Assembly (NCBI GenBank): GCA_944319735.1
Contig: CALUEU010000005.1
Coordinates: 62,001-126,000 of the forward strand
DNA: 64,000 nt
Direction of reading: 5' to 3'
Origin: an uncultured Methanomassiliicoccus sp.
Lineage (GTDB): Archaea; Thermoplasmatota; Thermoplasmata; Methanomassiliicoccales; Methanomassiliicoccaceae
A model generated the notes under the pieces. It was given only the letters and a program-made list of their open reading frames with translations. It was not told the origin of the DNA and ran no database searches. Both the position numbers and the translations under genes were made by a program. Below, one piece after another: positions 15,822 to 19,014 of the stretch (positions within the stretch are counted from its first letter, which is position 1; the number at the start of each line of letters is the position of its first letter).

Positions 15822-16624
15822 TGTCAATGTCTAGCAATATGATCAATTCAGCATTAGCTGCAAGTGAAACTGTAATCGATGCTACTGGAAAAGATCAATA
15901 CGGGCGTCCAATTGATTATAAAATAGTAAATAATGAAATACGCAGAGCTGTGTCAGAAGGAGTCAAAAATATCACACTTACGGGAGTAATGGGACAAAGA
16001 TACATAGCCACAGCAGTAGATAAAAAGATCAATATCTCCATCAACGGTACTCCTGGTAACAATTTAGGTGCATTCATGGACGGCCCTTTCATCGAAGTGT
16101 TTGGAAACGCTCAGGATATGACTGGAAATACCATGTCATCTGGTGAAATCATCGTTCACGGCAATGCCTGGGATGTTACAGGACTTTCTATGAGGGGAGG
16201 AAAAATATTCGTCAAAGGCAATACGGGAACCCGAGTGGGAATTCACATGAAAGAATTCGGCCAGATGTCACCACATATAGTAATCGGTGGAAGAGCCGGC
16301 GATTATCTCGGCGAATATATGGCGGGTGGAGTCATATTAGTTTTAGGTGAAAATATTCCTAAACAGATATCTCCAGTAGGATTAAGCATAGGTTCTGGCA
16401 TTCATGGAGGACGAATATTCATACGCGGAAAAGTCAATGCTAATCAGCTCGGAGTCGGTGCAAAGTTAGAAACTGTAAATGATGATGATTTAAAATTAAT
16501 TAATGAATTAATAAAAGAATATGAATCATGGTTTGGTTCATCATCCTCAGAAGGGGACTTCGTTAAAGTAGTGCCGTTCTCTTCCCGCCCGTTTCGTGGC
16601 CACTTTGATTCAACACCGATTTAA
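15818..16624 (+). CDS. gltB3: Glutamate synthase, GXGXG-domain subunit (archaeal GltB3)
   Basis: About 268 residues of beta-helix type with repeated glycine-rich turns (GTPGNNLGAF, GNAQDMTGNTMSSGEI, GNAWDVTGLSMRGGKI, GGRAGDYLGEYMAGG). It corresponds to the C-terminal structural domain of bacterial GltB. ATG 15818 overlaps the gltB2 stop as ATGA. Its stop overlaps the convergent Lrp-type gene by four bases. Confidence 0.9.
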   Translation: MMSMSSNMINSALAASETVIDATGKDQYGRPIDYKIVNNEIRRAVSEGVKNITLTGVMGQRYIATAVDKKINISINGTPGNNLGAFMDGPFIEVFGNAQDMTGNTMSSGEIIVHGNAWDVTGLSMRGGKIFVKGNTGTRVGIHMKEFGQMSPHIVIGGRAGDYLGEYMAGGVILVLGENIPKQISPVGLSIGSGIHGGRIFIRGKVNANQLGVGAKLETVNDDDLKLINELIKEYESWFGSSSSEGDFVKVVPFSSRPFRGHFDSTPI

Positions 16625-17067
16625 TTCGTACCAGGAAACCGCATTATCTCTTCCATGATGATGCGAACTTCCACATCTTTTAATCCTGCTGGGATGAGTT
16701 TACTTGAGATTATCGTATCAAGTGTTTCTGAATCTCTAGCCCTAACGCGGATTATCACTCTTCTGTCTCCGCTGACAGCCGAGACCTCCGCCACTCCGTC
16801 TACTCCATTCAGTTTTCTCAAGTCTCTTACAGCTACGCCATCTTCTACATCAGCGAGTACAATGGCATCTGCTTTCATGCCTGTAATCTCTCTGTCAACT
16901 ATCGCAGCATAACCAAGAATCACATTGTAGTCTTCCATCCGTCTTATTCTGTCTCTGACAGTAGACGGGGAGCGTCTGAGTTTGGCGGCTATTTCTCTAT
17001 ATGTTAACTTACCATCAGTCTTTAGAAGATTCAATATCCGACGGTTCATGTCATCAACGGCAACCAT
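16621..17067 (-). CDS. Lrp/AsnC family transcription regulator
   Basis: About 148 residues. N-terminal winged HTH (RRILNLLKTDGKLTYREIAAK, RRSPSTVRDRIRRME) followed by the RAM effector domain (GVDGVAEVSAVSGDRRVIIRV). ATG 17067 was chosen because GGAGAG lies six bases upstream; the open frame extends to 17127. Convergent with glutamate synthase, so it could control nitrogen or amino acid genes; the target is unknown. Confidence 0.85.
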   Translation of the reverse strand: MVAVDDMNRRILNLLKTDGKLTYREIAAKLRRSPSTVRDRIRRMEDYNVILGYAAIVDREITGMKADAIVLADVEDGVAVRDLRKLNGVDGVAEVSAVSGDRRVIIRVRARDSETLDTIISSKLIPAGLKDVEVRIIMEEIMRFPGTN

Positions 17068-17176
17068 CCAGTTTCTCTCCAGAATTAATGACGTAACCCG
17101 GGGCAGATAATACCTTCCATCTCTCAAAAATGAATAAATTACATTTGTAAAGAAAAAAGAGTTGATCGCTTTGCGA

Positions 17177-18250
17177 TCATAATGTTATGAATGTTGGAGT
17201 TTCGGGCTTAGGAGAGTAACAGGATTCGCTGGAATCTGTTATTTCCATGGGATATGTATTTTTTACAGAGTCTATAGCTGAACGTATTACGTTTCCTAAT
17301 TTATCTGGGTCAGATGTAACACGAGCATTTACAATCAACTTTGCTTCATCAGATACATATCTAGATCCATGGATACTATCTGTTTGTACGGAGTCACAAA
17401 CAAGAGACATTTTCACTCCTGCTGAAGGTGATGCAACTACTATTTTTACATGAGCTATTTCATCAGGTGTATATTCATTGGCAATGGATCTCATTATAGA
17501 CATCGAGAGATCATACATATCTATCTTGTCAAGAGGCTTCATTTGATTTATGGATGAATACCATGACATAGCAGATTTTTCAAATGAAAACTTAACTGTA
17601 TTCTCTCCTTTTTGGTTTTTAGTGCTGACAGATGAAGACATAATAATCTGTGCTATTTCATCAATGCCTTTCATAGTCTTTGAAGAGTACTTAATTATTG
17701 ACGCGTCTGGTGCAAGTTTTTTAATCTCTTCTTCTGCTGCTGTTTCTTCTTCTTTATTAATTAAATCCATTTTAGACATCAGTACAATTTCAGCTTCCTT
17801 CACTTGATGAGCTGGTATTAGTTTTTTAGTTGATTCGATATCCGCTGCCCTGATGCCGTCCACGACAACCATGAACGGAGCAACTTCGAACTCTTCAGGA
17901 TATTGCATTTTCAGCGGTTCGATAACAGATGACAGTATATTTGTAGAGGTTCCGATGGGCTCTGCGATTATGTAATCAGGACGTTTTATCTGCACGATCG
18001 ATCGAGCATTTTTAACAAATTCAGGAAATGTTGAACAGAAACAGCCTCCCACTATCTCGTTAACATCAAAGCCAGCATCCTGCACGTATTCCGTATCTAC
18101 CAGTGCATGTCCCTGATCATTTGTGATGATCGCGGTGCTTTTTCCATATTTATTTTTCAAGAGTCTTGCTATGTTGACCGTCAATGTGGTTTTGCCTGCT
18201 CCCAGATATCCACCTATAACTACAAATCTGGTACGTGTTTTTTCACTCAT
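17177..18250 (-). CDS. COG0523/CobW-like P-loop GTPase (metallochaperone family)
   Basis: 357 residues. Walker A GGYLGAGKTT at 13-22, a Cys motif GGCFC at 68-72 (the family metal site is usually CxCC), and SKMDL as the base-recognition motif. The family loads metals (Zn, Co, Ni) or cofactors into client enzymes. ATG 18250 has the SD GGTGA five bases upstream. The upstream Cys-rich HTH gene is in the same frame and is separated only by a TAG and four codons, so the two are one transcription unit and could be one polypeptide if TAG is read through. Confidence 0.82.
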   Translation of the reverse strand: MSEKTRTRFVVIGGYLGAGKTTLTVNIARLLKNKYGKSTAIITNDQGHALVDTEYVQDAGFDVNEIVGGCFCSTFPEFVKNARSIVQIKRPDYIIAEPIGTSTNILSSVIEPLKMQYPEEFEVAPFMVVVDGIRAADIESTKKLIPAHQVKEAEIVLMSKMDLINKEEETAAEEEIKKLAPDASIIKYSSKTMKGIDEIAQIIMSSSVSTKNQKGENTVKFSFEKSAMSWYSSINQMKPLDKIDMYDLSMSIMRSIANEYTPDEIAHVKIVVASPSAGVKMSLVCDSVQTDSIHGSRYVSDEAKLIVNARVTSDPDKLGNVIRSAIDSVKNTYPMEITDSSESCYSPKPETPTFITL

Positions 18251-18262
18251 TGTTTCACCATC

Positions 18263-18886
18263 CTATAGACCGTCTATGACAATCGCTCTTCTCATAAATG
18301 GGCAACTGTCGCAGGGAATAGATATTACGCACTTATGTCCAGAAGTAACTCCTTTTAATGCACAAACTAGCGCTAGATCCATGGGTCGGAAAGGTTTCTT
18401 TCTTCCGTTTTTGTTTAAAAACGCTACTTCATCTTTCGTGAGCGCATTTCCACAGAAACATCCTTCTTCAACATGCTTCAAGCATTTTGAAAACTCTTTT
18501 TCAGAACATCCGTCACATCTTGTGCCCACTTTAGACAGTTGTCCAAATATATTTGCCAAAGGATCTACGACAAAAAGTTCACCGTCTTTTCCTAGAGTTA
18601 TGTACACAGCACTAGGTGAAGAGGGAGCAATATATTCCATACGAGTTCCTCTGATTTTCTTTTCATCTACTACTTTCCAGAATTCTGAAAGCTGTTGTCC
18701 TAGTTGGTATGATACTTGATGATAACCCATGCCCAGCTTATCAGCAAGCTCCTGCTTGGTTGGAGGTTTATCCAGAGCCATTGCATAGAGTGTGCGCAGT
18801 ATCTCTTTTCTTAAATCATGATTCACTATTGAGGAATATATTTCTGGGTTGATGTACGAAATTTCTATGCGACATCCTGCTGGCAT
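18263..18886 (-). CDS. Cys-rich winged-HTH regulator ending in TAG
   Basis: 207 residues. An ArsR-like winged helix spans about 18-80 (LRKEILRTLYAM, TKQELADKLGMGYHQVSYQLG). The C-terminal half has nine Cys: C124, C127, C135, C143, C145, C175, C186, C192, C195, enough for a metal or Fe-S sensor. Predicted leaderless: TTAAATATT (18916-18908, minus) places transcription start at about 18886, the A of ATG. A perfect palindrome lies upstream of this TATA box. The stop is TAG, in frame with the following GTPase. Confidence 0.75.
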   Translation of the reverse strand: MPAGCRIEISYINPEIYSSIVNHDLRKEILRTLYAMALDKPPTKQELADKLGMGYHQVSYQLGQQLSEFWKVVDEKKIRGTRMEYIAPSSPSAVYITLGKDGELFVVDPLANIFGQLSKVGTRCDGCSEKEFSKCLKHVEEGCFCGNALTKDEVAFLNKNGRKKPFRPMDLALVCALKGVTSGHKCVISIPCDSCPFMRRAIVIDGL

Positions 18887-18907
18887 GCGTGTTTCAAATA
18901 TTTCTCA

Positions 18908-18916
18908 AATATTTAA
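18908..18916 (-). promoter_or_regulatory. TATA box of Cys-rich regulator
   Basis: Minus-strand TTAAATATT centred about 26 bases before ATG 18886, which predicts a leaderless mRNA. AAATATTTGA is repeated 12 bases downstream. Confidence 0.55.
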
Positions 18917-18931
18917 CTTGTTGGTAACGTC

Positions 18932-18951
18932 AATCAATCTATAGATTGATT
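18932..18951. promoter_or_regulatory. Perfect 20-bp palindrome, candidate operator
   Basis: AATCAATCTATAGATTGATT is its own reverse complement over all 20 bases. It lies 16-35 bases upstream of the TATA box of the Cys-rich regulator, the position expected for an activator or autoregulator site. Confidence 0.6.
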
Positions 18952-19014
18952 AAAGAACCATCTTTAGAATTTAGAAATAATTAACAAAATGTATTAAAAA
19001 TTAAATGCTGAGGA

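Follow-up and report, generated by a model that had tools for sequence, protein, structure and literature searches.

Organization of the locus

The window is a stretch of 64,000 nucleotides from an uncultured Methanomassiliicoccus sp., and the draft assembly of its genome comprises 21 contigs. The features considered here all lie on the minus strand.

18263..18886, minus: putative regulator gene for a Cys-rich winged-helix (ArsR-like) protein of 207 aa, terminated by TAG (open reading frame)
18263..18265, minus: TAG stop codon of the regulator (from the sequence); in homologues the stop in this region is TAA, TGA or TAG
18255..18265, minus: TAGGATGGTGA, the regulator stop codon and the overlapping ribosome-binding site of the GTPase gene (from the sequence)
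17177..18250, minus: gene for a COG0523 / CobW-type G3E GTPase of 357 aa, with its own ATG (PF02492)
16621..17127, minus: Lrp/AsnC-type regulator gene, downstream of the pair (PF13412, PF13404, PF01037)

The original prediction had noticed that the winged-helix gene ends in TAG at 18263-18265, and that four codons and the complete GTPase follow in the same frame with no further stop. Both points were confirmed from the minus-strand sequence. The gap between the two genes is 12 nt, made up of the codons GAT GGT GAA ACA, and read-through of the TAG would give a product of 569 residues (207 + 1 + 4 + 357), in agreement with the predicted size.

The separate ribosome-binding site predicted for the GTPase was also real. 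It is the GGTGA in TAGGATGGTGAAACAATG, 4 nt from the ATG. Of 116 genes surveyed in this genome, 14 had GGTGA 4-7 nt upstream of the start, with 4 nt being the commonest spacing. The ribosome-binding site accounts for the four linker codons. Coupled termination and initiation usually shows this layout, with a stop codon that overlaps the next ribosome-binding site.

Pyrrolysine genes and the use of TAG

Profile search placed pylS above the curated cut-off on contig C9 of this genome. Next come pylB, pylC, pylD and a RamA-like gene, named from their sequence content and order. Directly upstream of pylS (L005:2465-2535) lies a CUA tRNA-Pyl with an encoded terminal CCA. ARAGORN did not detect the tRNA-Pyl of this genome; it was identified by eye because the program misses this unusual tRNA. 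The assignment was made from the CUA in the loop, the pairing of the acceptor, a CCA encoded in the gene and the place before pylS, and the predicted fold was no better than those of shuffles.

The pyl cluster is flanked by two methyltransferase genes (L005), each of which contains a TAG within its reading frame and carries a PYLIS-like element. This gene content agrees with that described for the Methanomassiliicoccales (PMC3941956, PMC4153887). Across the order, pylS was present in 92 of 147 genomes. Thus pylS, pylBCD and the amber tRNA, which the original prediction had named as a check, were all present together with Pyl methyltransferases, and read-through is therefore biochemically possible.

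TAG ended 10 of 119 longer open reading frames in 120 kb of the genome, and two of the 10 were the methyltransferases. Besides these two, it served as a real stop in about 8 of 117 genes (~7%), including pylS. The published TAG stop usage for the order is 1.6% to 11.3% (PMC4153887). Since TAG really functions as a stop, at a modest frequency, its use is not limited to pyrrolysine.

The stop codon of pylS itself was read in 75 copies (L114-L188; L005:3401-3403 on contig C9 in the window's genome). It was TAG in 14 of the 15 copies from the window's family and TGA in 59 of the 60 elsewhere in the order; TAA was never found. Counts in small samples put the background TAG usage of the family at roughly 7-30%. 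The pylB start lay 7-16 nt after the pylS stop in 14 of the family's 15 loci, and pylB ended in TGA in 14 of 15. One locus (L123, on contig C4 of G003) had the family's only TGA-ended pylS, followed by its only TAG-ended pylB. Every pylS-pylB unit of the family thus has exactly one amber terminator.

At another locus (L124, on contig C8 of G006) the frame stays open for 364 codons beyond the pylS TAG, which puts pylS and pylB in one frame. This common frame was absent in the other family members. The lengths of the read-through extensions after pylS vary, and so it is the codon that is conserved, not an extension. As a guess, charged tRNA-Pyl might reduce termination at pylS, and hence re-initiation at pylB, in a feedback loop; shared ancestry is a possible cause of the family's TAG as well. 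A search of the literature turned up no paper on read-through feedback at the pylS stop.

Stop codons and frames in relatives

The regulator was carried by 68 of 147 genomes of the order. The loci judged numbered 67, from 66 of these genomes; the relatives among them belong to other genera than the window's genome. Eight were fused, 48 had a separate GTPase gene downstream (in the two f6 genomes this GTPase shares only 35-40% identity, and it may be a paralogue), and 11 had none there or were cut by a contig end. The pair was thus kept across the order, with the GTPase directly downstream or fused at 56 of the 67 loci.

In the 48 separate pairs the regulator stop was TAA, TGA or TAG (TAG in six), and the frame was free. 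The common frame was open in eight of them (TGA five, TAG two, TAA one). The number expected from the gap lengths was 8.3, calculated over the 47 pairs in which the gap was positive. TAG together with an open common frame occurred in two genomes only among the 48 pairs, the window's genome and the pyl-bearing G006.

The closest genera gave the same picture. In genus g3 the stop was TAA in five genomes and TGA in one, and in none was the common frame open. In genus g2 it was TGA in three genomes and TAG in one. In both genera the end of the regulator lay no more than about ten residues from one common place, RRAI-ID, and homologous regulators ended at the same place (ID/EGL, then the stop) with TAA or TGA. 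The TAG and the frame were hence not conserved in relatives, where all three stops and all frames were found; this is the outcome that the original prediction had named as refuting it. Judged from these relatives, the TAG and the shared frame at this locus are a product of chance, not above expectation.

A chance shared frame arises readily in tandem genes. Of 58 close tandem pairs in 120 kb of the window's genome, 10, or about one in six, were open in a common frame. One of the 10 was a genuine Pyl methyltransferase; the other nine followed TGA, TAA or the regulator's TAG.

PYLIS elements are helpful for pyrrolysine read-through, not essential. An Rfam search of 17100-19000 at E<=1 found no PYLIS near the TAG, and the methyltransferases in L005, used as positive control, were matched.

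Fused genes in relatives

In eight relatives, represented by draft genomes, regulator and GTPase form one uninterrupted open reading frame of 572-577 codons with no stop. Seven of these genomes belong to genus g29 and one (G018) to another family. The loci, in two separate lineages, are L038, L063, L066, L069, L070, L078, L080 and L085. The linkers contain sense codons only, and these relatives are distant from the window's genome.

A tree of the concatenated proteins required two changes to account for the fused state. Well-supported branches forced two, and a single origin appeared in no bootstrap tree. The fusions appear from this tree to have arisen at least twice. Independent gene fusion is classical evidence of two proteins acting together. 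Because they were fused independently, the regulator and the GTPase probably act as one unit.

No pylS match was found in three of the fused genomes (G018, G080 and G082), and pyrrolysine is therefore not needed for the joining. The original prediction had proposed that partial read-through of the TAG would physically join a predicted metal or Fe-S sensor to a metallochaperone. The idea of a joined sensor and chaperone is sensible in view of the conserved pair and the real fusions. On the other hand, TAG read-through as the device is unsupported, and gains nothing from the fusions.

The GTPase, the regulator and their neighbours

The GTPase matched PF02492 (cobW) with E=5e-28 and 98 bits, against a Pfam cut-off of 20.7, and so contains the cobW nucleotide-binding domain. 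The P-loop GGYLGAGKTT and the motif GGCFC were kept across the GTPases (53 homologues). The latter provides CxC, the third Cys of CxCC being absent.

No family in Pfam or NCBIfam matched the regulator above cut-off in profile searches. There were weak Pfam matches below cut-off to HTH_20 (13.8 bits, cut-off 27) and DUF4250. The modelled N-terminal winged helix weakly resembled those of the ArsR/SmtB type (Foldseek E about 0.01, mean pLDDT 50). The model was built from an alignment of only three sequences and is poor outside the winged helix, where confidence is low; the Foldseek matches are therefore a lead only. Cys residues 5, 124, 127, 135, 186, 192 and 195 were nearly invariant in 66 regulator homologues, which fits a predicted metal or Fe-S site. 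Within the 390 genomes of the phylum that were searched, the family was restricted to this order.

Comparison of 16 neighbourhoods gave no pathway for the pair from genomic context. An Lrp/AsnC-type family was shared next to the pair in six of the 16. Neighbours of the pair included glutamate synthase parts, an exosome-type RNA-binding protein (PF14382) and AsnC, and genes resembling proA/proB by sequence were found in the neighbourhoods of other families.

Several relatives (L012, L014, L015, L023, L027, L030 and L033) have the gene order GTPase-regulator-GTPase, with the regulator flanked on its other side by a second COG0523 paralogue that is more distant (35-40% identity). The nearest such paralogue in the window's genome is located elsewhere (C1:309595). 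A COG0523-like place with an apparent internal TGA (L055) was rejected: the gene is intact, about 200 aa, and the match had overrun its stop.

Interpretation of the TAG

We interpreted the locus as a two-gene unit in which the TAG is an ordinary stop, the shared frame is due to chance, and the regulator is a putative sensor partnered with the GTPase. We put the probability of this reading at roughly 0.85. The two genes would form one transcription unit, encoding a winged-helix regulator that may sense a metal or an Fe-S cluster and its partner COG0523 GTPase. The ribosome would end the regulator at the TAG and start the GTPase a few bases on, by termination-coupled initiation, which fits because the TAG overlaps the ribosome-binding site of the GTPase. 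The shared frame would be a one-in-three coincidence over the 12-nt gap. Judging by the independent fusions, regulator and GTPase probably function as a single complex. In it, the GGCFC site of the GTPase may serve to bind or deliver a metal, and the Cys pairs of the regulator may read the metal or cluster state and, through the winged helix, set the transcription of target genes.

A low level of incidental read-through may accompany ordinary termination, and both may be true. The TAG would still be a stop, and basal amber suppression would yield small amounts of a fusion that has no selected function. In Methanosarcina acetivorans a reporter gave 20-30% amber read-through, and suppression was reported as global in pyl archaea (PMC2933860), so that some of the 569-aa product may be made. 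The modest frequency at which TAG is kept in the window's genome is consistent with this, and the natural fusions suggest that the product would fold. However, the efficiency of suppression depends on context and on pyl gene expression. We give this possibility somewhat less than an even chance.

Programmed read-through would mean that, during growth on methylamines, a useful fraction of ribosomes decodes the TAG as pyrrolysine and makes the 569-aa fusion beside the separate proteins. The pyl genes, the tRNA-Pyl and the Pyl methyltransferases would allow it, the frame is open across the TAG, and the true fusions of the same two domains show that short linkers are tolerated there. This reading is nevertheless very improbable: the TAG and the frame were not conserved, the common open frame occurred at chance frequency, PYLIS was matched in the methyltransferases of the same genome but not near this TAG, and the linker codons are accounted for by the ribosome-binding site. 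It is just as hard to credit that methylamine-induced pyl genes would produce a functional fusion as a regulated version of the permanent one in relatives.

An all-sense TAG code, as proposed for some archaea, would make regulator and GTPase always one protein, and the open frame permits it, but TAG as always sense in this genome was rejected as extremely improbable on stop usage and homologous C-termini: about 7% of the genes in 120 kb outside the methyltransferases were TAG-terminated, pylS had its TAG at the same residue where homologues end in TGA, and the C-terminus of the regulator matched homologues ending in TAA or TGA.

With the TAG taken as an ordinary stop, what is left standing is a small lineage-specific module of a Cys-rich regulator, found in this order only among the genomes searched, and a metal-chaperone GTPase. 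It offers a concrete target for finding the metal or cluster that such a chaperone and sensor would handle.

Comparison with known systems

A transcription regulator binding a COBW-domain GTPase is found in CIA5-ZNG3 of Chlamydomonas (PMC13368412). That system is eukaryotic, with an unrelated regulator and separate genes, and serves as a loose analogy only.

Among metal sensors of the ArsR/SmtB type, the modelled N-terminal winged helix is weakly similar to SmtB, CzrA and ArsR-like proteins of archaea. Unlike these, the 207-aa regulator has a long Cys-rich C-terminal part without a known fold, matches no Pfam family over cut-off, and is confined to one order among the genomes searched.

The GTPase is a PF02492 P-loop GTPase like those of the COG0523/CobW-type G3E group (CobW, ZagA/YciC, ZigA and ZNG1, and archaeal subfamily 13), and like metal chaperones it has a Cys-x-Cys site after the P-loop. 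It differs in having GGCFC where CxCC is usual. The archaeal members (subfamily 13) were described earlier as lying mostly beside corrinoid methyltransferases (PMC2770081). The GTPase of the window, in contrast, adjoins a Cys-rich winged-helix gene and has no corrinoid methyltransferase neighbour.

With the amber-read methyltransferases (mtmB, mtbB and mttB), of which L005 holds two examples, the locus shares an in-frame TAG in a pyl-encoding genome. In those genes the parts before and after the TAG make up a single protein, and the TAG is followed by a PYLIS-like element, whereas the regulator's TAG stands at the conserved end of one protein, ahead of the start of another.
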